A stretch of 64,000 bases of DNA from Conus ventricosus (taxonomy: Eukaryota; Mollusca; Gastropoda; Neogastropoda; Conidae): the NCBI GenBank assembly GCA_018398815.1, contig CM031611.1, positions 48,777,763 to 48,841,762 of the forward strand. The letters run 5' to 3'. Positions 20,386 to 59,064 of the stretch are shown here, in pieces. The translations under genes were made by a program, and so were the position numbers. How positions within the stretch are numbered: position 1 is the stretch's first letter; each line of letters opens with the position of its first letter. The notes beneath the pieces are model-generated. The model had not been told where the DNA came from. It ran no database searches and was given only the letters and a program-made list of their open reading frames with translations.

Positions 20386-20447
20386 AGATTATCTTCTTTC
20401 AGGGTGTGTGTGAAACATTATCTTCTTTCAGGGTGTGTGTGAAACAT
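20386..20447. repeat. 33-bp tandem duplication
   Basis: ATTATCTTCTTTCAGGGTGT with GTGTGAAACAT occurs twice in direct succession, in an intron. Each copy contains a TTTCAG|GG acceptor-like site. Confidence 0.8.
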
Positions 20448-21729: not shown

Positions 21730-22359
21730 TAGTGCATCATCATGATAAAACCTCTCTTCTGTGTGTGTGTGTGTTTGTTTGCGTATCGAAGTAGATTTTC
21801 TCTGTAGAATTTTACCGGAGAAAACTCCTTGATGTGCTACACGTGGAACCTAGTTTTATCTTCTTGTCCAAAAGACTGACATTCTGTGAGAAAACCTGCC
21901 TATTGTGAGACACAAACCAACCACCTCTTGCACCTTAGGTCAGTGAGGTTTCCTCCACGCCACCTTTCCACAAAACATGGCATGACAGAAAGTATTTGAA
22001 ATGCATAAAACAAGTAATGTGATATTGTGACCCCTTTAGATTGGTGAGTATATTCCAGTTTCCTGATCCATTATCCTCTCTCAGGAATGGTTAAAGTGTT
22101 AAATTCTCATGGCCTAATGGCCACAGGGGCAGAGAACTGTTACAGGTTCACACAGTGTGTGGAGCATGGCATAATGGAATGAGGAGTCAATTCCTTTCCT
22201 TCTGCAGGCAAAATCTGTACATAACAAAAACTGAGGTGCATTAGTAGACTTCTTGTTGCCGCCCTTAAGTCCCCCTATGATGCACGGCTCACAGTAGGTG
22301 TGCACAGCGAGTTGATTTCTGCAGAATGTTGAAAAGGCGCTTTTTTTTTTTCTGTGCAG

Positions 22360-22448
22360 AAACTTGATGTCTGATATGGACTTTGCGGTTCTGAGCGAGT
22401 GGCATGACTGGATCACAAACAATGCCAATACTGGCCTGGATCTCATTG
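22360..22448 (+). CDS. Kinase exon 5: LSEWHDW segment
   Basis: The acceptor is a poly-T run then CTGTGCAG ending at 22359; the donor after 22448 is ATTG|GTAAGC. With the two bases carried from exon 4 it encodes KNLMSDMDFAVLSEWHDW, ITNNANTGLDLI and the first base of the next Val. Human TK2 has VLSEWFDWIL here. The exon enters in phase 2, ends in phase 1 and has no indel. A poly-T run of more than 40 bases starts about 20 bp after the donor. Confidence 0.92.
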
Positions 22449-22461
22449 GTAAGCCTATCTT

Positions 22462-22468
<7 letters not shown>

Positions 22469-22510
<42 letters not shown>
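22469..22510. repeat. Poly-T tract
   Basis: About 42 consecutive T just downstream of the exon 5 donor. Confidence 0.9.
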
Positions 22511-22513
<3 letters not shown>

Positions 22514-24184
22514 ACATTGAATTTTGTAATGGTTTTCCTGTACACATTTTCAGGTTGTCAAATTTGTTTTGGATTTTGGTCAAGGAATTTATATTAGGCT
22601 TACAGTAGTAGAGTGAAGTTTAATTGTGATTATTTGAGGTTTGTGACAGGAAGCAGAAAGTTGGATTGGCTTGCTGTATGCTTGCTGATCAGGATTTAGA
22701 TTTCTGTGCACATAGGCTTTATATACATAAAAAGCTAGATGTAAAAGCAAGGCAAGTGCATACGGTATCTGAAGTCGGCAACAGGATGGGCATGTCACTT
22801 TTACTTCCTGGAACAGTTAGGCTCTAATTCAGTTTTGAAGATGATGTCTAGGATTTTCTAGGTCATATGCCTGTTTCCCATTCTTGCAGGAATTTTTCTG
22901 GACTGTCTCAGGAAGGATAGCTTTATGAGTAAAATATTTTGTTAAAGAAAACCAAAAAACAACAGGATTGTGCCTGGGTAGATTTGTTTTCACCTGCTTG
23001 TCTTGTGGGCTGTTACCATCTGTGCTTTCTTGAATTAGAACTTGAAAGAAAGGGAGGTTTTTAGCTGCTCCCTCTTGAGATGTAGTTCCCTTTTTTTTTT
23101 TACTGGCATCCACTCTTAGCGTCAAATCTTGTGTGAAAAGGACTATGTGCCATGTGACCACATAAGTTTGCATCTCCTGAATCCAGTTGGTTGAGCAGCC
23201 TTATTTTTGCTTAGTTACTTGGACAATCCCTTTTAAGTATTTCTAAGATGCGGTCTCCAAACAGCCAACAAGTGACAGGAACATAATCTGGAAAAAAAAG
23301 CCATGCCAACTCCCTGCTGATGTGAAGCCTAATCGCCTGTGTGCATGTGTTTTGACAGCATAAGCAAAAAATCAGCATTTTGCAAGCATGACCGTTTTTG
23401 TGTGTGTGTGGGTTGAATCAATCAAGGTTTTGAGATGTACTCTGTTATAGTAGTTCCCAGTTTCATGACTGCATGTTGCATCTTGATTATTCTAAAGTCT
23501 GTGTAGGGCATTTGTGAGGGCAAGGATTTGCAGTTTTTTAAATTAACAAGGGAACAGTCAACTGTTAACACTTATCTGGCCTCAGATATTTGTCCATCCC
23601 ACTGGTCTGTTTTAGACAAATCTCTTATTAGGTAGACTGGCAAAAGAAAAGGCATCAGGTTCTGTAACTTTTCTCTGTTCATTTGCTCATCAGATACAGT
23701 TAGAGAAAGAATCTCTTCTCATACAAGTTCGCTTTTAGATGCTCATCTTTTGTCTGCTCTTTTTATTTTCTCGACATTTTTTAGTCCTGCCACAAATTTT
23801 ATGGCGCGGCTCATTTTCGTTAGCTCAATATCTATTCTTTACATTCTCTGTGGGCAGGCATGGGTAAGGGTAGGGTTCTTTGTCAGGGTTATGGATAAAT
23901 CTAGTCTTGTATTTGCCATTCAGTCTGGTCAGTAAAAGAGCAGCTGCTTCAAATAGTTTGTCATATATCGCATTTCTAAGTTTTGTTTTGGTCGCTTTCA
24001 TTTTTTTACAACCAGAAACTGGTCTGGCATGATGAAAGGAGGAAACTTGGCTTCCAGGTCTTTGTCTCCTGGCTTGTATTTGGTCCGTTACAGCCACATT
24101 TATCTTCCTTGACTTTATAATCATTTTCAGGGGAAATTTGATTTCACTACAAGCAGCAGATAAAATGTGACTTTGACCTGAGAG

Positions 24185-24424
24185 CTTGTAACACGAAGAT
24201 GTGTGTGTTTGCAGTGTACTTGCAGGTCAGACCTTGTAACACAAAGATGTGTGTGTGTTTGCAGTGTACTTGCAGGTCAGAGCTTGTAACACGAAGATGT
24301 GTGTGTGTGTTTGCAGTGTACTTGCAGGTCAGAACTTGTAACACGAAGATGTGTGTGTTTGCAGTGTACTTGCAGGTCAGAACTTGTAACACGAAGATGT
24401 TTGTGTTTGCAGTGTACTTGCAGG
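24185..24424 (+). repeat. Minisatellite made of the exon 6 splice acceptor and exon start
   Basis: Five tandem units start at 24185, 24233, 24283, 24335 and 24383, with spacings of 48, 50, 52 and 48 bp. The length changes come mostly from the number of GT dinucleotides. Each unit reads CTTGTAACACGAAGATG, (TG)n, TTTGCAG, TGTACTTGCAG, GTCAGA. The last two words are the real exon 6 acceptor plus the first 11 exon bases, then a donor-like CAG|GTCAG. Only the fifth copy continues into coding sequence. One frame stays open across the array because 50+52 restores it. Confidence 0.9.
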
Positions 24425-24492
24425 CCACTCCGGAAACCTGCCACGAGCGTCTGAAAAAAAGGAAACCGGTCGGAGGAGTCAGGAGTCTCTTG
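24413..24492 (+). CDS. Kinase exon 6: VYLQATPETC strand and LID region, with compensating indels
   Basis: The acceptor TTTGCAG ends at 24412 inside the last minisatellite unit; the donor after 24492 is TTG|GTAACC. The exon encodes VYLQATPETCHERLKKR, matching human VYLRTNPETCYQRLKKR. It then shifts frame near 24464 (one extra base in AAACC). The next frame gives RSEESGVS, as in fly dNK RSEESCVP. A base is missing before the donor, so the exon keeps its family phase. The arginine-rich segment is the LID that closes on ATP. Confidence 0.85.
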
Positions 24493-25009
24493 GTAACCAT
24501 TTGTTTTATGTTGGTGAATGTAAATTTGTGTGCAATTCTGTTCTCTGAGAGAATTTTTGTTACTGTTGAGATGTTCTTTTTGATGTTCTTGTTCGCACTG
24601 TTTATCTTGATGTTTTTTTTTTTATATCTCTCACTTGATTTGCCTGCCCTTCTCCCCATCCCCTTCTCTCTACTTCCTCCCCTCCCTTTCTGTTCTGTCT
24701 GTCTCTAACACTGTGATAGGAATTTTGGTATAGCTGGTATTGTCAAATGATTTTTTTTTTTAGTTTGCTGGCAAATTTTGGCTGTCCGTCTGGTCCTGCA
24801 ATGTTTGATGTTTCTGTTTTCCATTGTTCTGACTGAAGACTGATGATGCTGGTTGATGTATTTAATTTCATATGAACTGACAGAAGAAAAAAATCGCCCC
24901 ATTCTGCGCCCAATTTGAGAAGATGTTATTAAGTGGTTGCTCGTTCTTCGTTTTCATTGTCCTGAATATTGTTTATCTTGCTGAGGAAGACCAGCGAGTG
25001 CATGTTTTG

Positions 25010-25085
25010 TCTTGTGATTTGTTTGACCCTTTTTTCCAGTGGAATAATTGTGATTTGTTTGCCCCTTTTGTCAGTGGAATAATTG
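25010..25085. repeat. 37-bp tandem duplication
   Basis: TTGTGATTTGTTTG.CCCTTTT..CAGTGGAATAATTG occurs twice in an intron. Confidence 0.75.
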
Positions 25086-25186
25086 TAATTTCTCTTCAAA
25101 ATTGTTTTCAGTTTCCACCTGCAGCCACCTCACTTTGAAACTATCGCTAATTGCTAATTTCAGACAGGAATAATGAGGGCCTGGTT

Positions 25187-25595
25187 GGCTAATGGATAAG
25201 CCATCAGACTCTTTGTCCCAAGGTCAGGGGTTCAAGTATTCAAATCAGCCCGGCTAGAAGAGATTTTCTCTCATCTATGCAGACACCAATGCCCTCCTAG
25301 TCCTTCAGAAGAAACTTTATTTTAAACTGAGGTTGTGTGTGTGAATGCATATATTCTCCATTCCATGTTTTGAAGAAGAGTTGGACATTGTGCTCCGCCA
25401 CTAAGCAATTATTGTCGTCCGTAGGGGGCTTAGCAGATGGTGTCCTGCGTATGCTGGATCAGAACAGACGTCACTGAATACCACCAAAGTGACTCGGCAG
25501 CAGTGCAGTGTTTTCTTCAGTAGGTTACCTCTTGACGGCGTGACATTGACTGCTCCTGTGGATTGCCATGGCTGTGGTGATCTAGGCCAGGCTGT

Positions 25596-25684
<89 letters not shown>

Positions 25685-25790
25685 GGGGGGGGGGGGGGGG
25701 GGGGGGGGGGGTCGGGGTTCAGAATGAGTGGTTGGGGTGTCCCAGAAGATGGGACGGCCCCAAAAAAAGTAGAAAAAGAAAAGAAAAAAC
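25187..25790 (+). mobile_element. SINE with a different, tRNA-Arg-like head and the shared 3' block
   Basis: The head GGCCTGGTTGGCTAATGGAT and the box B-like GGGGTTCAAGTATTC resemble a tRNA-Arg-type sequence, unlike the head at 15871 and 19068. From about 25393 it carries the block seen at 19590 (CCACTAAGCAATTATTGTCG, GGGGGCTTAGCAGATGGTG, GTGACTCGGCAGCAGTGCA). It resumes after the poly-G run and ends in an A-rich tail. The poly-G expansion sits inside the element. Confidence 0.7.
25596..25711. repeat. Poly-G tract of about 116 bases
   Basis: Almost pure G with single interruptions (TC near 25644, T near 25684). The length may be unreliable in the assembly. It could form many stacked G-quadruplexes. 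Confidence 0.9.
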
Positions 25791-26344
25791 CAACAACCCC
25801 CCCCCCCTCCCCATCTATTGGCAATTTAAAGAGAAAAAGGGAATGTGGCTATCTTAATGGTGGGATTAAAAATTGTTACAAAATATGGTTGAAAAATGTT
25901 CAACCGGTGGTAAAGCTCAGAGTGCCCGATGAGGAATGAAGAAAAGGAATATAAAAGAGACTGGAATTCAAACTTTTTCCATCTGTGTTCTGGAAACCCT
26001 GATTTTTTTTTCTTTCTGATAACAGTCTATGACAAGCCAGGTTTACTTTTTTTCCTTTTTTTTGTTTTGCTTTTTGTAATCTGGCGATAGGTGATGAAAG
26101 TTGTACACGGTGTCCATTGTGGGCATGGACTTTTCATTCTATAGTATCCATTTGCCCATATGGCTTTTTTCGGTGGCATATAAATGTTTGTCATTAGTCT
26201 CTTGTATATTTTTTAAACTGGGAGTGAGAAATCGAGGGGGGTGCCTGCTGCTCTCAGCACAGCCTACTTGTATGTGCTGTAAGTTGTCAGTAGTTTGGCT
26301 ACCACATCATTGACTGCTTTTGTCGTTTCTTTTTCAGTATATAG

Positions 26345-26377
<33 letters not shown>

Positions 26378-26553
26378 CTGTTTTGATCTGTCAATGATGA
26401 GGCTTTTTTCTTTTTCCTTTCTTTCTGTTTTTTTTTCTTTAAAAAAAAAAAATTCTAGTATGAGTCTTACAGCTTTTAAAAGTCTGTGTGATCAGCTATG
26501 GTAAGAGGGGGGTCAGCAGGTGTGGATGCAATAAACTGACATTCCTGTTGCAG

Positions 26554-26632
26554 GAATATCTACGGGACCTTCTACTCTGCATGAAGATGGCTGATCCATA
26601 AAACTAACGGTCGGCTGCCTGCACCGGTTTTG
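26554..26632 (+). CDS. Kinase exon 7: HEDWLI segment, with two one-base deletions
   Basis: Acceptor CCTGTTGCAG ends at 26553 and donor GTGAGT starts at 26633. It encodes EYLRDL, then across a missing base near 26574 TLHED, then across a missing base in the Trp codon near 26589 WLIHKTNGRLPAPVL. Fly dNK and TK2 have YL..LH.LHE(D/E)WLI here. The raw frame stops at TAA (26599). With both bases the exon would be 81 bp and phase 0 to 0. Confidence 0.85.
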
Positions 26633-26759
26633 GTGAGTCGCGCAAACCTTTTTTTCTTTCCTTTTCTGTTGCTAAAGAGATTTTGAATGTTTCTTCTGTC
26701 TTTTTCAACTGAACCACATGTCTGGGCTCCACGGTCTGTAAAAACTCGTTCTGCTTCTC

Positions 26760-26853
26760 CATTCTCAGTTTCTCTCTCCCTTTCTCTCTCTCGCTCTGTT
26801 TCTCTCATGTCTGTCCGCTTGCCTGATTATCTTTCTCTGTTTCTGTCTGACTG

Positions 26854-26922
<69 letters not shown>
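26760..26922. repeat. (CT)n-rich tract
   Basis: Imperfect CTCTCT/TGTCT stretch grading into about 68 bp of pure CT. Confidence 0.9.
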
Positions 26923-26926
<4 letters not shown>

Positions 26927-27292
26927 CTCACTCTAATTGTGTGTAGTGTATTTTGCATAATTGTATTTGTACATATGCAGTTGCCTGAATCAGGGCTTCC
27001 ATTGAAACACATTTTTGTCAAAAGTTTTATGGCACAAACCATAACATCACTCATGGGGTGTTCCCAGTCAGTGTATAATAGATTTTTGTTTATTTCATAA
27101 CTTAACCAAACACAAATTGCCCCACATGAAGTGCATCTCGGTGTTCTAGTCTGTATTGTTTTAAGAACTATAACAATGCAAATAAATTTTATGAGCTGTG
27201 TTTGATAATTTCCAGTGAAATGGCTGCCTTCTTCATTGCCAACCTCTAGCAACAACCACATTGATTATGGGACACTATAATTGTCTCTGATA

Positions 27293-40600: not shown

Positions 40601-40915
40601 CTGGTACTTTCATGACAGTCTGACACATTCCCTCTGGGAGCTCCTAACCCATGGGGGATGCTCAAGCAGATTTGCTGTTCCTGGCAACTGCCTCAACGTT
40701 GTCCAAGGACCAAGTCTCATGATAGCATGTCGGTGCATAAACACTGCCATCCCCATCAGGGGTTAGCGATTAACCACCTATACCACCAACCACCAGTTAA
40801 AAGAACCCTCCTTCCAAGACGACTTCTTCCTGTGGGAAGTTCCGTGAGGAGTTGCTCTCTGGGTGGCCCGTGCCCCCTCGGTGATCTCCCTTTCCTCACC
40901 TTGCAATTTCTGCAA
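37640..40915 (+). mobile_element. DIRS-like retroelement, left part (reverse transcriptase and RNase H), decayed
   Basis: Broken plus-strand frames give the DIRS-type reverse transcriptase start near 39270-39440: RLNHFLRTVNYKMDSLS, MRDSIQQ and DWVSTIDWKDAFFCV. Families have NLRPLN.FL....FKMETL and SxDLKDAYF there. Near 40050-40080 a MAYYINK segment matches the RNase H motif DN..AYINKQGG. Upstream sequence (37.6-39.2 kb) may be the gag-like region but gives no recognisable motif. Stops and frameshifts throughout show it is dead. The element is interrupted on its right by an I/Jockey-type LINE and resumes at 45219. Confidence 0.6.
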
Positions 40916-42400
40916 ACTGTCTTTCGGCCAATATCCAAAATCAACTTCCTGTCCATAGTTTCTCTGGCATTGTCCATTTTAGTGTGAAGATGTTCCAGTG
41001 TGTCACTCCAGTATGGCAGGTAATGTCTTCTTTTGCCCCTTGAGATTGCCTGCTTTGCTGCCTGAAGAATTGCATTAGTGAAATTCTGGACGTTCTTGTT
41101 CAGGTCATTTTCACAGCAAATGTTTCTGGTGTGGTGGTCAGCCTTTTCTGCAAAGAGGGTCCAGTTGGCTCGTTTGAAGTTCCAACTTGGTTGCATGTTG
41201 CGCTCAGTACATCCCAGGCTGGAGATGTTGAGAATGACTGGCAGGTGGTCGCTCCCTCCAAGCTGGGTGCTGACTTCTCTGGACGTGAGCTTGTGAATGT
41301 CCTCAGTAGCTGCTGCCAGGTCTGGTGTGGAGGTGGTTTTCCAAGCTCTGGAGAAGCACGTTGGTTTGTCGTCCGCCTGGTTGATGAGTACTAGATTGTT
41401 TTCCATCATCCAATCCTCCACTTCCTCACCACGGGCATCCATTTCTTCATATCCCCAGCTTTGCGAGTGGCTGTTGAAGTCTCCATCCACCAGGTGTCTG
41501 TAAGCTTCTAGCTTCACGTTGTGTAGCGTAAGAGATGAGGTTGATGGGCTGTAGCAGTTGGTGATCCATAGGTCTCCACTGGGCAGCAAGAGCTTGACAG
41601 TCAGGTGTTCTAGTTCTTGTCTTCTTGATCTGTTTGTCTCCACTGCAGGGATGGAGTTTCTGTCAAGGGTAATGATTCCTCCCTTGTGTCTGTCTTCGCG
41701 GTCTTGGCGAAATGTCTCGAAGCCTCTTACAAAGAAACGTCGATGATCTTTCAAGTGCATTTCTTGGATGCAGATGACGTCGATGTTGTTTTTGCTTAGA
41801 AACTTTTGCAGTTCTGGCTTCTTGTTCCCTAGTCCTTCTGCATTCCACTGAGCTACTGTAAGGGTGGTAGGAGGCTGGGTAGTCTGGCCAGTCGCTCTAC
41901 TCTGCCTTCCCCGACCGTCAGGTTAACAGAGGCACCGGTCGCTTTGGTGGGCCCCTTTGAGGCTAAGGGCCCGGCTCCGTCCCTCCCCGGTTGTCGCTGA
42001 TAGGGACGACGCCATGACAATAAGGTAGTTTGACGCATGACCATAATCGTTGATGCGTGTGTGCCCTAATTTATCCCCAGGACCTGCGCCGTAGCTGACA
42101 CACTCCGTATTCGGCAGGCTGGATGCTTTTGCCATTTAACCCATGGCTGGGGTAAGGCTTGGAGCAGTGTCAGGGCGTATCCACATGCCGGTGGGCCTTC
42201 ACTCAGTTCCTTCCATTTTGGTGGGGGCCTTACTCCTCCATCTGGACTGGTCTAGCCTGCGGCTTTCCTTGATTAGAGAGGCCGGGATCTAGTTTTGATA
42301 TAGCGCCAGTATTCCGCTCCCGTGCCGCGTTAGTGAAAACAACCTGCCCCATGTCCCCCTGAGGAGACACCCACATTAACGTGGCGAGAAGGTGCGACAA
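40915..42400 (-). mobile_element. I/Jockey-type LINE, 5' half in inverted orientation (endonuclease)
   Basis: On the minus strand the apurinic endonuclease starts near 41868 with VAQWNAEGLGNKKPELQ and ICIQEMHLK (across a frameshift near 41750). It continues with GGIITL, WITNCYSP, GDFNSHSQSWGYEE, STPDL and SDHLPVIL, then the linker RGKRRHYLPYW and MDNARETMDR. Catalytic motifs GDFN.H and SDH are present. Sequence at 41870-42400 is its 5' untranslated leader. It sits head-on against the plus-strand reverse transcriptase half, and the two halves together cover the element with little loss. The left edge is uncertain by some tens of bases. Confidence 0.8.
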
Positions 42401-45218
42401 CGGTGTTCACCCTTTCTTAATGGAAGAAAGGGATCTTCGCAGGTCCCCACTCCAGAGAACCTAGTGAGGCACAACAACGCCAAAGAAGCTTTCAACCAGC
42501 AAAAGAAAGCTGAACTCCAAAAGAGCTGGAACGAGAAGACCAGCAGCCTCAACATGGAGAAGGACACCAGCAAGCTGTGGAATCTGACAAAAGCCCTGAA
42601 TGAAGACACCAGAGCGGGACACAGCAAAACCGTCATCGAGGAAAACGGTACGCACCATGCGGGAAGGAAAGCAGCAAACATCCTGGCAGACTTTTACAAA
42701 GAAGAAAGCAAAGCAACAATACACAATGCCCGAGTGCAGGAAGTCAGCAAGGAAACCAAGGAGAAGCTGAAACACCAGAACCTCACACCATGATGTCAGC
42801 CTTCTCCATGACTGAACTCAGTGCAGCCATTAAAAAACTAAAGCCAAAGAAAGCCCCAGGGAAAGATGGTGTTCCCAATGACATGATCAGGAGACTTGGA
42901 ACCACAGCAAAACAGAAGCTTCTTCTGATCATCAACAGTCATGGAGCTCAGGGATATTCCCAGACCGATGGAGAGAAGCAGTCATCATCCCCATCAGAAA
43001 GAAACAGAAAGACAAAACCAAGAAATCCAGTTACCGACCGATCAGCCTCCTCAGTTGTCTGGGCAAGGTGATGGAAAGAATGGTGAACACAAGACTGTTG
43101 AAACACCTGGAAGAAAATCACCTGCTCAGCAACACACAGTAGGCTTACAGGAAAAACCACAGTACGGAAGACCAGCTTGTGTACCTCGCCCTACAGATCG
43201 AAAACGCCTTTCAGGAGAAGAAAAAGGTACTCACTGTCTTTGTGGACCTGACCAAAGCCTTCGACAAGGTATGGAAGGAAGGACTGCTCCTGAAGCTGCT
43301 AAACAAGAAAGTGGAAGGGAATATGTACCACTGGATACGCAACTTCCTCCAGTACCGCACAGCAAGAGTACAACTTGATGGGAAAATTAGCCATCGAATC
43401 ACTCTACAACAAGGTGTACCACAAGGAGGAGTCATTTCCCCTACACTCTTTCTCATCTTCATTGACGACATCGCTGAGAAGCTCACCAAGCACATCTCCA
43501 GAGCTCTCCACGCCGACGACTTTGCTGCCTGGAGTGCTGCAGAACATTTAACCACAGCCAGCTACAGGATGCAGGAAGCACTGGAACACGTCGGAAGATG
43601 GGCCTCTGACTGGGGCGTAGAAATCAACGCCACCAAAACAGTGGCCACAGTCTTCTCGCTGTCGCCACTGCCAGAAACCATCAGCCTGAAAATAAATGGA
43701 AGAGAGCTGAAACAAGAAGACAACCCAACATACCTAGGCATCAAGCTGGACAAGCGGCTTACTTGGAATCCGCACCTCAAGAACATTGAAAACGAAGCAG
43801 TCAGGAAGCTCGCCATCATGAAGAAGCTGGCCGGTACATCCTGGGGCGCAAACAGCAGCATCCTGCAGAAGGTGTACGTGGGTACCGTCAGACCAACCCT
43901 GGAGTATGGCAGTTCTGCATGGGCCACTGCATCCAAGACCAACACCAGTCGCCTGAACAAAGTGCAGAATGCAGGATTGCGACTGATCACGGGTGGGATG
44001 AAGACTACCCCAATCCAAGCCATGGAGAAGCTTACTAGCCTACATTCCCTCGAAGACAGACGCGAGGAGAAGGTTTTCATCCACAGTGAAAAGTTACTGC
44101 GTATGCCTACCCACCCCATGCACACCGAGATGCAGAACCCCACCAAAAACAGGCTAAAGAGAACAAGTTTCAACCACCTGTCTAAGAGCCTGCATCGCAG
44201 AAATGAAGACCTGCCTGCTTCACCAGCCGAAATGGAGATGCTTCCAGATTTTGAGGGAACCAGACAATCACCTAGAGGATGTCGCAATCATCACTGAAGT
44301 TCCTGGCATTAAAAGAATGGACCGTCAAGCCCTCAAGTAATGAAAGCTCTGGCACAGGAGATGATTGCCAACCAATACAACCCCAGTGAGTGGACCCACG
44401 TCTTCACAGATGGATCCTCAGAAGGAGCAGTCAAGAATGGAGGAGCAGGGTTCTTCATCAGACACACCAATGGAAGATTGACACACAAGGCCTTCCCCAC
44501 CGGAAAGATCTCCTCCAACTACAGAGCGGAGACAATAGCACTGCTCCACGCAGTGAGGATCTTTCTGAGACCAGGCAGCCATCACAGAAGGTTGTCTTCT
44601 TCACAGACTGCCGATCTCTGCTGCAGGGACTTCAGAACACAAGAAATGAACAACATACGCAAGGCATCAAGGCTGCCCTCCATGAACTCTCAAAACAGTC
44701 TGTCATTACACTTCAGTGGATTCCGTCTCACTGTGGGATCATGGGCAACGAAAAAGCTGATGCTCTCTCCAAGGCAGGCAGCAAAATGGAGCAGTTCAGC
44801 CACCCCGTGACCTACAGGAGGCCAAGACCATCATCCACAACCAGTTTCAGTCCCAGTGGAAGAGAAGGCTGGGTGCAGAGAATGGTGCTGACCCGATCCA
44901 CCAGCTCCAAAGGCACCAGCAGACAATCCTCTTCAGACTGAGGACCGGCCACTGCAGACTGCTGAGCCACCTTAACCGCCTGAAGATCACCTACACTGAC
45001 CAGTGTCCATGCGGCACTGGACCCAGACCCCTGAACATGTCCTCCTGCGCTGTCCTAGTCACGCAGCTCTACGACACAAAACCTGGCCGGGGGAAGCGGA
45101 GTTACAGGCGCAGCTTTGGGGAGCCCGTTCTGACCTGGAGAAGACCGCGGGCTTCATCATGGCGGCCGGGTTACAAGTCTGACGCATCCAGCTTAAATCG
45201 AACGCAGAAGAAGAAGAA
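42400..45218 (+). mobile_element. I/Jockey-type LINE, 3' half (reverse transcriptase, RNase H, zinc knuckle)
   Basis: The plus strand starts with the linker (LVRHNNAKEAFNQQKKAEL, KLWNLTKALNED). The reverse transcriptase follows: KPKKAPGKDGVPNDMI, then after a frameshift YRPISLLSCLGKVMERM, FVDLTKAFDKVW, QGVPQGGVISPTLF and catalytic HADDF (43509-43523), then YLGIKLDKRLTW. The main frame is open from 43179 to 44297. RNase H follows with FTDGS, YRAETIAL and, after a frameshift near 44570, FFTDCRS and IPSHCGIMGNEKADALS. Near 45000-45050 is the zinc knuckle CPCGTGP..PEHVLLRCPSH. It ends at 45218 with an AGAAGAAG tail. Confidence 0.88.
42412..42434. repeat. Small perfect hairpin at the LINE inversion junction
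   Basis: CCCTTTCTT and AAGAAAGGG flank a five-base loop, giving a 9-bp stem near the point where the inverted and sense LINE halves meet. Confidence 0.7.
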
Positions 45219-46640: not shown

Positions 46641-46784
46641 TCATCCTCTTCTGTCCTCTCTTTCATCATACTCACCTCCGACTTCTCTCTATCCTTGACT
46701 TCTCACCTTTCTCCCCATCCCTCCCTATCTGTTTTCACCTAATATTCCACCCCTTTATCCTCCTGTCTGAATCCTTTCATCCTA

Positions 46785-49700
46785 CCCTCTGACCTCTCTT
46801 CATCCTTTCATCATTCCCTCTGACCTCTGTCCATTCCTTCATCCTCCCTCTGACCTCTCCATCCTCCCCTATGACCTCTCTCCATCCTCCCCTCTGACCT
46901 CTCTCCATCCCTTCATCCTCCCCTCTGACCTCTCTCCATTTCTTCATCCTCCCCTCTGACCTCTCTCCATCCCTTCATCCTTCCCTCTGACCTCTCTCCA
47001 TCCTCCCCTCTGACCTCTCTCCATTCCTCCATCCTCTCCTCTGACCTCTCTCCATCCCTTCATCCTCCCCTCTGACCTCCCTCCATTCCTTCATCCTCCC
47101 CTCTGACCTCTCTCCATTCCTTCATCCTCCCTCTGACCTCTCTCCATTCCTTCATCCTCCCCTCTGACCTCTTTCCATTCTCCCCTCTGACCTCTCTCCA
47201 TCCTCCCCTCTGACCTCTCTCCATTCCTTCATCCTCCCCTCTGACCTCTCTCCATCCCTTCATCCTCCCCTCTGACCTCTCTCCATCCCTTCATCCTCCC
47301 CTCTGACCTCTCTCCATCCCTTCATCCTCCCCTCTGACCTCTCTCCATTCCTTCATCCTCCCTCTGACCTCTTTCCATTCTCCCCTCTGACCTCTCTCCA
47401 TCCTCCCCTCTGACCTCTCTCCATCCCTTCATCCTCCCCTCTGACCTCTCTCCATCCCTTCATCCTCCCCTCTGACCTCTTTCCATTCTCCCTCTGACCT
47501 CTCTCCATCCTCCCCTCTGACCTCTCTCCATTCCTTCATCCTCCCCTCTGACCTCTTTCCATCCTCCCCTCTGACCTCTCTCCATTCCTTCATCCTCCCC
47601 TCTGACCTCTTTCCATCCTCCCCTCTGACCTCTCTCCATTCCTTCATCCTCCCCTCTGACCTCTTTCCATTCTCCCCTCTGACCTCTCTCCATCCTCCCC
47701 TCTGACCTCTCTCCATTCCTTCATCCTCCCCTCTGACCTCTTTCCATTCTCCCCTCTGACCTCTCTCCATCCTCCCCTCTGACCTCTCTCCATCCTTCAT
47801 CCTCCCCTCTGACCTCTCCATCCTCCCCTCTGACCTCTCTCCATCCCTTCATCCTCCCCTCTGACCTCTCCATCCTTCATCTCCCCTCTGACCTCTTTCA
47901 TCCTCATCTCCCTCTGACCTCTCTCCATCCTTCATCCTCCCCTCTGACCTCTCTCCATCCCTTCATCCTCCCCTCTGACCTCTCTCCATCCCTTCATCCT
48001 CCCCTCTGACCTCTCTCCATCCCTTCATCCTCCCCTCTGACCCTCTCCATCCTTTCATCCTCCCCTGACCTCTTCCCTCCTCCCCTCTGACTCTCTCCAT
48101 CCTTCATCCTCCCTCTGACCTCTCTCCATCCCTTCATCCTCCCCTCTGACCTCTCTCCATCCCTTCCTCCTCCATCCCCTCTGACCTCTCTCCATCCTTT
48201 CATCCTCCCCTCTGACCTCTCCACCTTTCATCCTCCCCTCTGACCTCTTTCCATCCTCCCCTCTGACCTCTCTCCATCCCTTCATCCTCCCCTCTGACCT
48301 CTCTCCATCCTTCATCCTCCGATCCCCTCTGACATCTCTCCATCCTTCCCCCCTCTGACTCTCTCCATCCTCTCTGACTCTCTTCCATCCTCCCCTCTGA
48401 CCTCTCTCCATTCCTTCATCTTCCCCTCGACTCTCTGCATTCCTTCATCCTCCCCTCTGACCTCTCTCCATCCCTCCCTCTGACCTCTTCCATCCATCCC
48501 CCCCTCTGAACTCTCTCCATTCCTTCATCCTCCCCTCTGACTCTCTCCATTCCTTCATCTCCCCTCTGACCTCTCTCCATCCTCCCCTCTGACCTCTATC
48601 CATCTCTCACCTCCCCACTGACCTCTCTCCATCTCCTTCATCTCCCCTCTGACCTCTTCCATCCTTCATCTCCCCTCTGACCTCTTCAATCCTCCCCTCT
48701 GACCTCTCTCCATCCTTCATCCTCCCCTCTGACTCTCTCTCATCCTCCCCTCTGACCTCTCTCCATCCTTCCATCCTCCCTCTGACCTTTTCTCCATTCA
48801 TCCTCCCCTCTGACCTCTCTCCATCCTTCATCCTCCCTCTGACCTCTCTCCATCCCTTCATCCTCCCTCTGACCTCTCCATCCCCCTCTGACCCTTTCCA
48901 CTCTCCATCTCCCTCTGACCTCTCTCCATCCTTTCATCCTCCCCTCTGACCTCTCTTCATCCCTTCATCCTCCCCTCTGACCTCTCTCCATCCCTCATCC
49001 CCCTCTGACCTCTCTCCATCCTTCATCCTCCCCTCTGACCTCTTCCTCTATCCTCTGACCTCTCACCTCCCCTCTGACCTCTCTCCATCCCTTCATCCTC
49101 CCTCTGACTCTCTCCATCTCCCTCTACTCTCTCATCCTTCATCTCCCTCTGACCTCTTTCATCCCTCATCCTCACCTCTGTCCTCTCTCCTCATCCTCCC
49201 CTCTGACCTCTCTCCATCCTTCATCCTCCCCTCTGACTCTCTCTCATCCCTTCATCCTCCCTGGCCTCTGACCTCTCTCCATCCCTTCATCCTCCCCTCT
49301 GACCTCTCTCCATCCTCCTCTGACCTCTCCATCCTCCCCTCTGACCTCTCTCCATCCTTCACCTCCCTGACCTCTTTCCACCTCCCCTCTGACCTCTCCA
49401 TCCCTTCACTCCCCTCTGACATCTCTTCCTCCCTCTGACCTCTCTCCATCCCTTCATCCTCCCCTTGACCTCTTTCATCCCTTCATCCTCCCCTCTGACC
49501 TCTCTCATCCCTTCATCCTCCCCTCTGACTCTCTCCATCCCTCATCCTCCCCTGTGACCTCTCTCCATCCTCCTCTGACCTCTCTCCATCCCTTCATCCT
49601 CCCCTCTGACCTCTCTCCATCCCTTCATCCTCCCCTCTGACCTCTCTCCATCTCTTCATCCTCCCCTCTGACCTCTCTCCATCCTCCCTCTGACCTCTCT

Positions 49701-51260
49701 CCATCCTCCCCTCTGACCTCACTCCATCCCTTCATCCTTCCCACTGACCTCTCTTCATCCCTTCATCCTCCCTTCTGACCTCTCTCCATCCCTTCATCCT
49801 CCCTCTGACTCTTCATCCTCCCCTCTGACCTCTCTCCTCCTTTCATCCTCCCTACCTCTCCATTCCTTCATCCTCCCCTCTGACCTCTCTCCATCTCTTC
49901 ATCCTCCCCTCTGACCTCTCTCCATCCCTTCATCCTCCCCTCTGACCTCTCTCCATTCCTTCATCCTCCCCTCTGACCTCTCTCCATCCTCCCCTCTGAC
50001 CTCTCTCCATTCCTTCATCCTCCCATCTGACCTCTCTCCATCCTCCCCTCTGACCTCTCTCCATCCTCCCCTCTGACCTCTCTCCATCTCTTCATTCTCC
50101 CCTCTGACCTCTCTCCATCCTCCCCTCTGACCTCTCTCCATCCCTCATCCTCCCCTCTGACCTCTCCATTCCTTCATCCTCCCCTCTGACCTCTCTCCTC
50201 ACCATCTGACCTCTCTTCATCCCTTCATTCTCCCTCTGACCTCTCTCCATTCCTTGATCCTCCCCTCTGACCTCTCTCCATCCTTCATCCTCCCCTGACC
50301 TCTCTCCATTCCTTATCCTCCCCTCTGACCTCTCTCCATCCTTCATCCTCCCCTGACCTCTCTCCATCCTTCATCCTCCCTGACCTCTCTCCATCCCTTC
50401 ATCCTCCCCTCTGACCTCTCTCCATTCCTTCATCCTCCTCTGACCTTCTCCATCCTCCCCTCTGACCTCTCTCCATTCCTTCATCCTCCCCTCTGACCTC
50501 TCTCCATCTCCCTCTGCCTCTCTCCATTCCTTCATCCTCCCCTCTGACCTCTATCCATCCCTTCATCCTCCCTCTGACCTCTCCATCCCTCATCCTCCCC
50601 TCTGACCTCCTTCATCCTTCTCTCCCCTCTGACCTCTTCCATTCCTTCATCCATCCCTCTGACCTCTCTCATTCCTTCATCCTCCCCTCTGACCTCTCTC
50701 CATTCCTTCATCCTCCCCTCTGACCTCTCTCCATTCCTTCATCCTCCCTCTGACCTCTCTCCATCCTTCATCCTCCCCTGACCTCTCTCCATCCTTCATC
50801 CTCCCTCTGACCTCTCTTCGTCCCTTTGACCTCTTGCTATCCTTCATCCTCCCCTCTGACCTGTCTTCGTCCCTTCACCTTCCCTTTGTCCACTCTTTAT
50901 CCCTTCATCTTCCTGTCTGACCTTGACCTTCTCATTCCATCCGCCCTTCCCCTCTGACCGCTCTCCATTCCGTTATTCTCCCTCTGATGTCTCCGTCCCT
51001 TCGTTGTCCCTTTGACTTCCTCTCCATCCTTGCAAACTCTCCTTGACCTCACTCCTCCTTTCATTCCGTGACCTTGACCTCTCTCCATCTTCAACTCCCT
51101 CTGACCTCCGTCCATTCCTCCATCTTCCCTTCTGCCGTCTTCATCCTCCATTCTGACCTTTCTCTCCATTGCCTCGTCCTCCCCTTTGACCTCTGTCTAT
51201 CCTTTCGTCCTCCCCTCTGATCTCTCTCTTCATCTCTCTATCTGTTCATGCTCCTCTCTC
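46785..51260. repeat. 4.4-kb homopyrimidine minisatellite
   Basis: The main unit is 31 bp (CTCTCCATCCCTTCATCC then TCCCCTCTGACCT), mixed with a 23-bp form lacking CCTTCATC. By length there are roughly 150 units. The plus strand is almost only C and T plus the single G and A of TGACCT and CAT. 46.9-47.8 kb is very regular. 47.8-50.9 kb has many one-base losses in C and T runs. 50.9-51.26 kb grades into degenerate pyrimidine sequence. The minus strand is G/A-rich and carries AGGTCA once per unit. The Glu/Arg/Gly-rich open frames on it are artefacts of the unit. Confidence 0.95.
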
Positions 51261-52420
51261 ACTTCTCTTCATCACTTCTTCCTCCACTGTGACCTCACTC
51301 TGTAGTCATCCCTCCAGTCCTCGCCTTGGATATATACCTCTGACCATACCATCCCCTAATTTTCCCCTGATCCCGTTGTCTGTCCCTTGGTCCTTACCTC
51401 GGCCTTCTCTTTTTCCACCCATTCGTCTTTTCTGAACTCGCTTTCCATTCCTTTCAGTCTCTCAAGTTCCTGTTGGAGCTCTACCTCCATTTGTAAATCA
51501 CAACCACTCTCTTCATTCCTACATCCAGACCATTGACCTCTCCATGACTCTATCTTGACTCTTCGATCCTATGCCTCTGTCTCCCCCCCCCCTCCCTCTC
51601 TCTCCATTCCTTTATCTGCTTCTTAATGTTGCTCTCCAGTCCTTCATCCTGCCCTCCTATCTCTCTCCGTGGCTGGGGTGAGAAGCGGAGTAGGGGAAGG
51701 ATAACTTGGGCTTGTCCAAACTGTCGGTTCCATTGTGGACAATAGCGTTAGTCTCCCCTATTTTCGCCCAAATTCCGCCGGTTCTAGCTAGGCAAGCAGA
51801 GTGGGAAGCGGGTTGTGGTGGTGGTGGTGGTGTGGGGACGGGGCAGGGAGGGGGGGGGGGGGGTGTTATGTCACGGTGGCAGCGGGCAGCACTTCTGTTC
51901 TGTTCTTCTTTTTTTTTTCTTTCTTCCTGTTTTTCTGTTTTTTTTTTTAACCCCAGATATATCTTTACTGCACGGGGAAAAAAGATAGGCTACACCTGAT
52001 TTGTGTCGAAGAGAAACACGGTAACAGACATACGTAGGCTATGTCTGTCGATCCAGGAATCAGAGTACACAGAAGTCCCTGAAAGTCCTTTCAAATACTT
52101 GAATTTTGAGAACCCTTTTCCAGGACTAGAAAAGCCCTTGAAATTCAGTTGGCCGTTAGAGCTCATCCTCACTGAGAGTGCTTGAAAACGCGAAATTTCA
52201 CGGGACATTTGATATCTTGCTGAAAAAAAATCATGCAAAGAATGGTAACATATGAAAGTTCGAGTTCGTTCTGTTACCAGTTTGCAAAAACTGAAGTGTT
52301 CATTTCCCTAGCGTCTGCTTCTAGGCATATTCTGCAGAAGTAAAGCAACCGAACAATAATGTAAAGGTGTCAATTTTCTGTATTACAGCCTTTGAATTTA
52401 ACTTACATGTTCTTAAGAAT
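51261..52420. other. Pyrimidine-rich fringe and non-coding DNA
   Basis: Until about 51680 this is degenerate C/T-rich sequence related to the array. A (GGT)n/poly-G stretch follows at 51816-51865. No exon recognised after it. Confidence 0.5.
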
Positions 52421-55388: not shown

Positions 55389-57251
55389 GTGCATAGACAT
55401 GTGCACAGACACTTGTAGCGTGTCATGTATGATGTATGTGAGATCAGTATTCTTTCACTTGCTTTTGCATTTTTATTACAATAGATCTGAGAATAGTAAC
55501 CTGTGGGTGAACATGGAATATAAAGAGCTTTATGGAATGTATGGCAGACTTTGTAATGTAGGGACTTTGATTTAGTTTTCAGATTGCTCTAATCTTCTTC
55601 ACTAATAGTTTGCTCAAGCTAGCTTTAGTTTTGATCCTAATTTTTATTTAAAAAAAAAACCTGGATAAATATACTGGAGTAGTATATCTGTGACTAATAT
55701 TTGGAAACGATTCCTTGACACTATAATGTGATAACGTTCTGAATTGAATGTGTCAAGAAACCAATATTTTACATGAACAATTAATATTGTGTTGTTTACT
55801 TTGATGATAATTTGTATAACTGTTTTTAAGAGGGTGAAATTGAAGGATACACAAATGTAATTGAAGGCTTAGTGCATACAAAATCAGAATGAAAATTATA
55901 TTTCCTTTCATACTGTATTTTCAACCTGTGCGACCCCTCGTTGTTGTAGCAACACACCACCATCTTACCTGTAGTCACTAGCAATTTTTCATTGTTAAGA
56001 AATTGTTGAAAACAATGGCCAGTACCAGCATTAATATCTTTAACAGTCCAGTTCAATCCAATTGTTTACTTGCCGAGAACACCTGGATGCAGGCCTCGAG
56101 TTCAAACTTAAGAGGTCACTGTGACCTTTTCGGTTTCCTTCATCCAATTCATTCGCGACTAGGGTTAAGAATTTAAAGAAATAATGTAGTACATCAGTTT
56201 CGTCCTTCATGGCTGGATTGATTTCAAAATTCTCCAATGTTCTCTGAGTTTTGTTTTCACTCTAACTTGTCTTCGTGCGTGTGGCTATGCACACACATCT
56301 TAACTTATTCACATGCGTATGTGCTGGTCAGTCTATCTTCCTATAGTATAGAATGACCCCTCTTTACAAGATCTGTTTTTCGCAACATTTTCAAGTGTCA
56401 TTGAAAGGTTCCACAAGAATCAAGATTGTAATGTTCAGTTGTTTCCAGTAAATAATAGATGTTTAAATTTCAGTAATAAAGAATTTGCTTTGCTTTTTTA
56501 TAGTTAGAATTTTTGCGGTGATGGTGCTTTTCTGATATGTTTGTTCTGTTTCATGTTAGATGAATTGATTTGTCTGAACAGATATTGTTGGATGTTCTGT
56601 TGCTACAGGTCTATTATTATTTCTTTTCCTCTTTCAGCTTCAAAGGAGACGAAGTGGAGATAAGTAGAGCCGCACCAGCATTCTGTGGACAGAATTCCTC
56701 ACTTCATTTGTGTGTGCTCCTTCGCTGTTTTGGTATTCGGAAAGTGTTAGTGCATCCCTGTGCATACTCCTTAACTGTTTACTGCAAGCTGCAACTATGT
56801 TGGAGTGACAGGCATGGTTGCATGAGTGTCTTTTTTAACTTTAGAATAATAGCAACAGTATCATACCAGTGAGTAGAGTGATATCTTGTGTAGCATTTTC
56901 ACCAAAATTTACAGAATGCAGATCTGTACATTACCCACCCGTAGTTAATATTGTGTGTCTCAGTTGAACACAGATTAACAGTATTTTCAGCACTATTGGA
57001 TCAACTGAATAACCTTCCAATCGAGACTTTTTTTTTATTGCTGCATTTGACAGCAGCCATAGTGTAATGTGTTGCGTTTTCGGTTCTTGCCTTTTCAGTC
57101 TGCTGTTCACAGATGGATCATAGATGACAGAAAGAACAGAGAAATGAATTGTCACAGTTATGGATTATTCTGACACATTCGACTGAGGCTTGCAAGAGTC
57201 ACAATTTTCAAGGGCAGCATTTGTCGGCAGAGAGCAATAAACTGAGAAATC

Positions 57252-58776
57252 ATGGAACCCAAAAGGTTTGGGGTCAACTTGAAGCCTACTGGGGCTGATC
57301 CAGTCCATGACAAAGGCTTCTCATCAGGATCCTCAGGGGCATCTAGAGTCCGCAAGACCTCTTACACTCCACTCAAACCAGCCAATGTACAAGATCTGAA
57401 GGCTATGTTTGATGACAAGAAAGGGGGTGGAGGAGGAGCAGGAACTGCATCATCCTCTGGAGCTTCCAGTCCTCGATCTGGGGCTGTTAGTCCAAGATCT
57501 GGAACAACCAGTCCACGATCTGGATCTTCCAGCCCAGGGCACAGCGGGCATAACTTCAAGAAGAGTGAATCGGCCACTTCAACTTCCTCCAGGGTTCTGT
57601 CTTCAACATCCACCACAGGACCATCCAAAGGAACTGGTGTGGATAATAAATCTGTGTCGAAACCATCAAGCATTGCTACAAATTCATCACAGTCCAGTGT
57701 ATTAAGTAGTAGTGTGTCTTCTAGAGATAATGCCTTTCCCAGCAGAATCAACATCACAACAACCTCGTCGTCGGCAGCTGCGCGCTCATGGAGTCCCAAA
57801 AGCCGAGAGCAGACCAAGACAGACTCGAAAACAAATCTGGGCTTGAAAAGCAGTGGTTTGAAACGTGAAGAGAAAATAGTTGAAATTCCAGTGCAGCATG
57901 ACACAGCCAAGAGAACTTTCAGTGGTCCCTATGACAATCAGTCAAAGTCTCATTCCTCTGTTACCTCATCATCCAAATCATCATTACTGACCAAGACCTC
58001 TGGAAAAGGCACAACAGCTGGCGTAGCTAAAACACTGCAAGGATCTCCCAGCTCACAGACAGTGACAAAAAAGAACAGTGGGCTGTCTGCATCATCAGTA
58101 ACTTCTGATAGATCTTCGACAGACCAAAACGGTTCTGCAAGCAAAGCTGGTATCAGATCGAAAGGACGTGAAATCCCAGTGCAGAGGCTTCCCTCTGAAT
58201 CAAACAAAAACGACAAAGGTAGTGTTAAAACCACTGAACAAAGTAAGCAACTTACAAAGAGTGACAAGTTAAGGTCATCAGGAGAAAAGAATCCAAATTC
58301 CCTACAAAAGCCAAGGAATTCAGAAGTTTCTGATCCCCGCATGCTGAGTGTAAGGCAAATGAGCAGTGAGCGGTTTGAGCGCCTTAAATTTGACTTTGAG
58401 CGTGGAGTTCCGACAGAATGCCAAGAGAGGAGAGCGTCAGAAACAACTGATCACATAGAGCTACAGATGAAAGCGCGAGATTTGCAACTTGCCAAAGCAG
58501 AACCCGAAGAGGATAAACCGCCAAAGGAGGAGTCCATTTTTGCCAAAGGGATGAAAGTGTCTGACTTTGTGAAACATATCAACACGGTGCACCCTCCGTC
58601 GGATTTAGAAGCAGCCAATGTGAAAAAGTTCAAAAGCGGTGGCCCAAAGACGCAGCCAGGCGACAGGCTTCACCAGAGATCCCTGTCAGACCCTGGGGGA
58701 GAGAATGAGTACATTGAAATGCCGGAAGGTGCCGGAGACGAAATCTACGAGTTTGTGGGCGAAGGCGAGGTTGAAG
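57252..58776 (+). CDS. First coding exon (508 codons) of a Ser-rich, scaffold-like protein of unknown function
   Basis: The start ATG at 57252 lies nine bases after an in-frame TGA. A likely 5' UTR acceptor (GCCTTTTCAG) ends near 57100. The exon ends at donor GAAG|GTAATT in phase 1, so the protein continues. Residues 1-55 are distinctive (MEPKRFGVNLKPTGADP, then RKTSYTPLKPANVQDLKAMF). Residues 56-360 are Ser/Thr/Lys-rich and probably disordered, with four SPRSG-type repeats at about 72-95 and two copies of the EIPVQ word. Residues 365-500 are better structured: SSERFERLKFDFERGVP, a charged helix (ELQMKARDLQLAKAEPEED), FAKGMKVSDFVKHINTVHP, then tyrosines in ENEYIEMPEG and DEIYEFV. YIEM fits the YxxM motif of PI3K-type SH2 ligands. 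This looks like a cytoskeletal or signalling adaptor. I do not recognise the family. No frameshift in 1.5 kb. Confidence 0.85.
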
Positions 58777-59064
58777 GTAATTTGCATTTGATTCTTGTGT
58801 TCAGGGATGTGCATGGTTAGTGTAAACAAATGTTTCTGCTTCAGTGTCACAGATTGTTTGCTTTCAGGTAAGTTGTAAAGCTGTTATGATAGCTATCCTG
58901 TTAGGTCAGGTTAAGCGTGTAGTGGTAGAGGTAGGTGATGTGTGTTCTGGTCATTGGTTGACACTGAGCATTCTATCTTGCGTATTTTTATAGGGAAAAT
59001 GAGACAAACTTTAGTCTTGATGAAAAAAGTCTCTGTGTTGGCTACAGTATCAGTGACATATATT

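Follow-up and report, generated by a model that had tools for sequence, protein, structure and literature searches.

A five-unit minisatellite copying the intron 5/exon 6 junction of a TK2-like kinase gene in a cone snail, and similar arrays at other exon junctions

The stretch of DNA considered here (the window, 64,000 nucleotides in all) corresponds to C17:48777763-48841762 in a 3.52-Gb assembly of 12,740 contigs. This assembly of Lautoconus ventricosus, the Mediterranean cone snail, was built from PacBio CLR reads, as described in the available text of PMC8152183. The window contains a thymidine-kinase-2-like (TK2-like) deoxynucleoside kinase gene, the spliced peptide of which matches PF01712 with E=3.7e-11. 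In protein searches the kinase showed 75% identity to TK2 of Littorina saxatilis and 92% identity, over 70% of the query, to a fragment from Nucella lapillus; a search with a 71-residue piece of the kinase gave no match.

Three exons of this gene, all on the forward strand, are of importance here. Exon 5 (22360-22448), placed by Pfam analysis of the spliced peptide, donor position and U1 pairing, ends in NTGLDLI and has the donor GTAAGC at 22449. Exon 6 (24413-24492), placed by homologue alignment, starts with VYLQATPETCHERLKK and has the donor GTAACC at 24493. Exon 7 (26554-26632) follows the acceptor TTGCAG, has the donor GTGAGT at 26633, and its frame is broken in the assembly. The first codons of exon 6, VYLQ, match the segment IYLQATPETC of deoxycytidine kinase, and the exon begins at the same codon in the paralogous exons on contigs C15 and C1. 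In all eight homologues that reach the intron 5 junction (nine of 142 matches were aligned, and eight of these nine span it), LI or II leads directly into VYL without an insert. The predicted TK2 of Nucella lapillus (P0004) matches through the last residues of exon 5 (DLI) and ends four residues later, as if the predictor had missed exon 6.

The window also carries other repeats and frames. A 29-bp two-copy array with TTCTTTCAGGGTGTG (20388-20447) lies within an intron of the TK2-like gene, where no exon is known, and a 116-base run at 25596-25711 consists almost entirely of G. At 46771-51273 there is a degenerate CT-rich tandem repeat of about 4.5 kb with a period of about 31 bp, and a 524-codon open frame without a Pfam match (57246-58820) includes a 21-bp array at 57456-57536. 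An endonuclease-like frame (40756-41922, reverse strand) and a reverse-transcriptase-like frame (43143-44297, forward strand) lie on opposite strands and probably derive from non-LTR elements.

Directly before exon 6 and running into it, five tandem units occupy positions 24185-24424 of the forward strand. They measure 48, 50, 52, 48 and 48 bp and start at 24185, 24233, 24283, 24335 and 24383, with spacings of 48, 50, 52 and 48. Each unit combines the 3' splice site of intron 5 with the first 11 bases of exon 6 in the form TTTGCAG/TGTACTTGCAG behind a TG tract; TGTACTTGCAG recurs at 24215, 24265, 24317, 24365 and 24413, and GTGTTTGCAG stands directly before each copy. Units 1-4 run on as CAG/GTCAGA, and unit 5 runs on as CAGGCCACT into exon 6. 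The preliminary description had reported five junction-copying units of which only the last enters the exon, and this is borne out by the coordinates, by Tandem Repeats Finder (TRF) and by the homologues. The TRF score of the array is 400, as compared with a maximum of 64 (period at least 20) in 100 full-length dinucleotide shuffles of 22001-27000. Together with its flanks, the array is found at a single location in the assembly.

The units are not identical. In unit 1 (24185-24232) the “decoy” acceptor ends at 24214, the exon copy occupies 24215-24225 and the donor-like GTCAGA begins at 24226. The corresponding positions are 24264, 24265-24275 and 24276 in unit 2 (24233-24282), 24316, 24317-24327 and 24328 in unit 3 (24283-24334), which has the longest TG tract, and 24364, 24365-24375 and 24376 in unit 4 (24335-24382). 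In the terminal unit (24383-24424) the TG tract is interrupted by TTT, the true acceptor ends at 24412 and the true start of exon 6 follows. The TG part, earlier suggested as the slippage point, does differ between units. The suggested origin, a duplication across the intron-exon boundary, is supported as well, since the 11 bases in each copy code for conserved residues of the kinase, so that the exon is their source.

The four decoy acceptors with their donor-like continuation, which the preliminary description had listed, are structurally intact. A branch-like TGTAAC lies 23-27 nt before the AG in every unit, and the interval from -23 to -4 contains nine pyrimidines at the acceptors of units 1-4 and ten at the last one; the true exon 6 acceptor has the fewest pyrimidines among the seven acceptors counted in the gene. 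Judged by these sequence features, the five acceptors would be nearly equal in strength, the true one being hardly stronger than the decoys. The predicted U1 pairing of CAG/GTCAGA (-6.9 kcal/mol) is better than that of four of the seven gene donors examined, which range from -1.9 to -10.1 kcal/mol.

The earlier suggestion that upstream acceptors could extend exon 6 in frame holds for decoys 1, 3 and 4, which lie at distances of 198, 96 and 48 nt to the true acceptor, and fails for decoy 2, which is out of frame (148 nt) and meets a stop. Occasional use of the decoys would accordingly add 16, 32 or 66 codons (units 4, 3 and 1) or truncate the protein (unit 2). A frame open across the array had also been described, and a 188-codon frame (24142-24708) is indeed present in the assembly; it is weak evidence in view of frequent single-base assembly errors. 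A chain of serial 11-nt microexons was rejected as the main reading because, by the coordinates, the inter-unit introns from a donor-like site to the next acceptor would be just 37-41 nt long.

The exact unit lengths should be treated as unsafe since the assembly contains many one-base length differences. In the TK2-like gene itself, such differences relative to the relatives break the frame of exons 2, 6 and 7. A paralogous deoxynucleoside kinase (dNK) gene on C15 is assembled twice (59228000-59257999, L022-L024), its second copy lying on a piece bounded by 100-N gaps and being probably a haplotig placed in tandem. Alignment of the two copies (13,040 bases) shows 170 one-base gaps, 108 of which are adjacent to an identical base, and part of these gaps may represent a real haplotype difference. 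Each copy also has private single-base differences in conserved codons, and for this reason we regard assembly error as a likelier cause of the frame breaks in the host gene than the pseudogene status that they first suggested. Three intronless-looking dNK matches (L002 on C450; L004 and L009 on C17) were considered as retrocopies that might serve as “fossils” of splicing and were set aside, since they have no DNA match to the gene.

To understand how often such arrays may be detected at other exons, we inspected 280 match edges at 140 loci found by homology outside the window: 30 myosin loci (flanks of 1500 bp), 80 regions of myosins and kinases (flanks of 350 bp), 20 chaperonin regions and 10 dNK-family loci. 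At no fewer than 13 of these edges, in 12 loci, reading of the sequence confirmed an array that copies its own junction together with exon bases. The 13 arrays comprise seven acceptors (L054, L071, L074, L076, L105, L113 and L122) and six donors (L017, L068, which is degenerate, L075, L100, L113 and L132), carry 1-16 extra copies, and belong to myosin, kinase and NDUFA10-like exons; the exon identity of L054, L075, L100, L113 and L132 was rechecked with Pfam.

The myosin head exon of L054 (C29:51278783, reverse strand, 1741-2362) is preceded by 16.9 copies of a 37-bp unit holding its own acceptor (CTACCTGTCAG/ATGTTC), and AG is present in all 16 decoys counted. The donor end of the NDUFA10-like exon L017 (C3:144010601, forward strand, 1596-2309) is repeated 11.9 times with a 59-bp unit (AATGTG/GTAAGTG). 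The receptor-kinase-like exon L113 (C1:109266077, forward strand) has arrays at both ends, 5.0 copies of 42 bp at the acceptor and 10.5 copies of 32 bp at the donor. In L122 (C12:95556030-95556993, 1-305), 6.1 copies of a 50-bp unit provide six decoy copies of the acceptor (TTCAG/GAGTGTGTGA) upstream of a kinase exon starting GAGTGTGTGAAGGGG; the homology match starts inside this exon.

The frequency of junction arrays varied between the groups: the first 30 myosin loci had one at 60 edges, the 80 regions that followed had 11 at 160, and the dNK family had one at 20. No junction array was found at the 40 edges of the chaperonins (20 regions fetched of 48 rows, with all 81 candidates scored), which fits chance or a search bias; the arrays may recur unevenly, or their recurrence may in part reflect that bias. 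The sample is non-random, being drawn by homology and rank: scoring covered 65 of the 231 myosin candidates and 140 of the 883 kinase candidates, and exon pieces repeated in arrays may raise the rank at the first look, so that the search may favour them. The edges of the matches do not coincide exactly with those of the exons, and a small number of the sampled loci are not spliced exons. Two intronless-looking chaperonin frames (L147 and L153 on C3541) possibly mark a contaminant contig, and a nearly full-length mitochondrial COX1-like frame (code 5) lies within a chromosome-sized contig (L025, C13:52756042), as either a nuclear copy or a misjoin.

In the 14 arrays, the window's included, AG or GT/GC is retained at 81 of 84 extra junctions, a proportion biased upwards by scoring that demanded similarity to the true junction. 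The distance to the true junction preserves the frame at 31 of the 84, which is near the one-third expected by chance; the frame is thus not kept more often than chance across these arrays, and the three of four in the window array are too few to judge. Array ends occur at 0.61 per kb just inside the matches, at 0.41-0.56 per kb in the 150 bp of intron closest to them and at 0.10-0.31 per kb deeper in the intron, where counts are too low in bins close to the limits of the fetched flanks. Compared with all intron bins, the exon side has 12 ends where 5.1 are expected (P=0.006). These 12 ends differ slightly from the set confirmed by inspection of the sequence: counted among them is the acceptor side of L100, whose array adjoins the junction but copies no exon bases, and missing are the L113 donor array, which ends 0 bases outside the match, and the L122 acceptor array, which ends 19 bases outside it. 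We do not claim an enrichment of arrays at junctions, since the nearest 150 bp are not clearly different; the excess over all intron bins leaves room for a special process there. The sample thus shows neither a clear avoidance nor a clear targeting of junctions, and no visible selection on the frame.

The explanation that we prefer, with a probability of roughly 0.75, is that the array represents a neutral, tolerated junction minisatellite of the TK2-like gene, in a genome where such arrays abound. We suppose that a segment of about 48 bp spanning the intron 5/exon 6 junction was repeatedly duplicated in tandem, and that the resulting short minisatellite grew by unequal exchange or slippage. 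The donor-like CAG/GTCAGA in units 1-4 is probably a breakpoint “scar”, in which CAGG from the exon became joined to intron sequence from upstream; the intron sequence preceding unit 1, TGAGAG, resembles what follows the exonic CAGG in this scar. The last acceptor is probably used for most or all functional mRNA because it is only at the last copy that a full exon follows, with its own sequence and a downstream donor. The array would then be tolerated since the exon-bounding copy is normally used, and an adaptive function would not be needed. The similar arrays at junctions of other genes make it look like a recurring by-product of DNA duplication and not a special switch.

Such a switch, in which unit number and TG repeats tune acceptor choice towards in-frame insertions or a poison frame, had been proposed for this array, and we regard it as unlikely. 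The four complete decoy acceptors, each with its branch-like sequence, are what it would need, three of them are in frame and open, and the UG tract beside T(n)CAG resembles the CFTR exon 9 context associated with TDP-43. However, the 13 arrays elsewhere affect donors as well as acceptors, the frame preference is absent over all 14 arrays, and an insert would fall just before VYL, where none of the eight homologues spanning the junction has one. Nothing in our analysis favours a tuned switch for the TK2-like gene, and the claim of a special, length-variable device is not supported.

Under another alternative, the copies would be an assembly artefact absent from the animal. CLR errors are mainly single-base changes and not 48-bp tandem copies, the units show the variation in sequence and length that tandem copies have, and one 32-bp two-copy array is common to both separately assembled C15 copies. 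On the other side, three arrays of one C15 copy are unreported in the other, and the assembly is a PacBio CLR one with many one-base length differences, its authors mentioning possible false exon redundancies (PMC8152183, available text). We consider an artefact very improbable; the array is very probably real in the animal. An equally slim chance is given to junction arrays being intermediates of intron or exon gain, in which a decoy piece lying between AG and GT would turn into a new exon, or TTGCAG/GTCAG would serve as a recursive splice site: units 1-4 each hold an acceptor, 11 exon bases and a donor-like GT, and such a gain model has been put forward for amphioxus (PMC3087553, available text), but the exon would be only 11 nt long, the gaps to the next acceptor 37-41 nt and the pyrimidine tract weak.

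The neutral junction minisatellite would by itself be a curiosity; the spread of such arrays in a mollusc is the aspect that could be new. Tentatively, and at somewhat less than even odds, we suggest that a few percent of cone-snail junctions lie in minisatellites copying the junction up to about 17 times, that the spliceosome routinely picks the exon-bounding copy, and that length-variable leakage into decoys feeds isoform variation and the gain of introns and exons. If so, the genome would represent a natural genome-wide experiment on splice-site competition. Should the sampled rate hold genome-wide, there would be very many natural tandem acceptors and donors, and RNA-seq could show the spliceosome's choice among near-identical sites, leakage into isoforms and the seeding of introns. 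For annotation there is a warning: real-looking arrays of splice sites, combined with assembly indels, can mislead gene predictors in genomes of this sort.

Within the literature covered, to which most subscription papers did not belong, we found no report on junction arrays in molluscs, and only amphioxus offers a direct precedent for junction minisatellites. Several other systems are related in part. The interferon-induced gene 6-16 (IFI6) has a minisatellite with multiple splice donors; there too a tandem repeat offers several splice sites in one transcript, the sites being donors and not intron-end acceptors as here. In CFTR, a (TG)m(T)n tract of variable length before exon 9 is bound by TDP-43; it resembles our array in having a UG repeat beside an acceptor T-CAG, and differs in that one acceptor is accompanied by a microsatellite, whereas here whole acceptors are copied. 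Introns are reportedly gained by tandem duplication of AGGT-bearing segments, which likewise makes new AG and GT sites; in the cone-snail array no new intron is seen.

The “mirages” of amphioxus, described in Adh3 and the globin genes BflGb6 and BflGb9, are minisatellite-like duplications of intron-exon boundaries, 5' or 3', with AG or GT in many units (PMC3087553, available text). By this structural definition the window array is of the same kind, as far as its sequence tells: its units span an exon-intron boundary of their own gene, AG is kept in four of four decoys, and arrays of both boundary kinds recur at several loci outside the window (at least 13 of the 280 edges). The likeness is closest to the BflGb6 mirage, which copies an intron end and the 5' part of exon 2 as the cone-snail array does for exon 6. 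The available text of the same paper reports six and three units of the BflGb6 mirage in different haplotypes and RT-PCR suggesting regular splicing at the mirages. The two cases differ in the host, a gastropod versus a cephalochordate, and in the unit length, 48-52 bp versus 150-160 bp in BflGb6 and 10-72 bp in Adh3; for amphioxus, haplotype lengths and RT-PCR are reported, and the cone snail contributes a sample of other exons.
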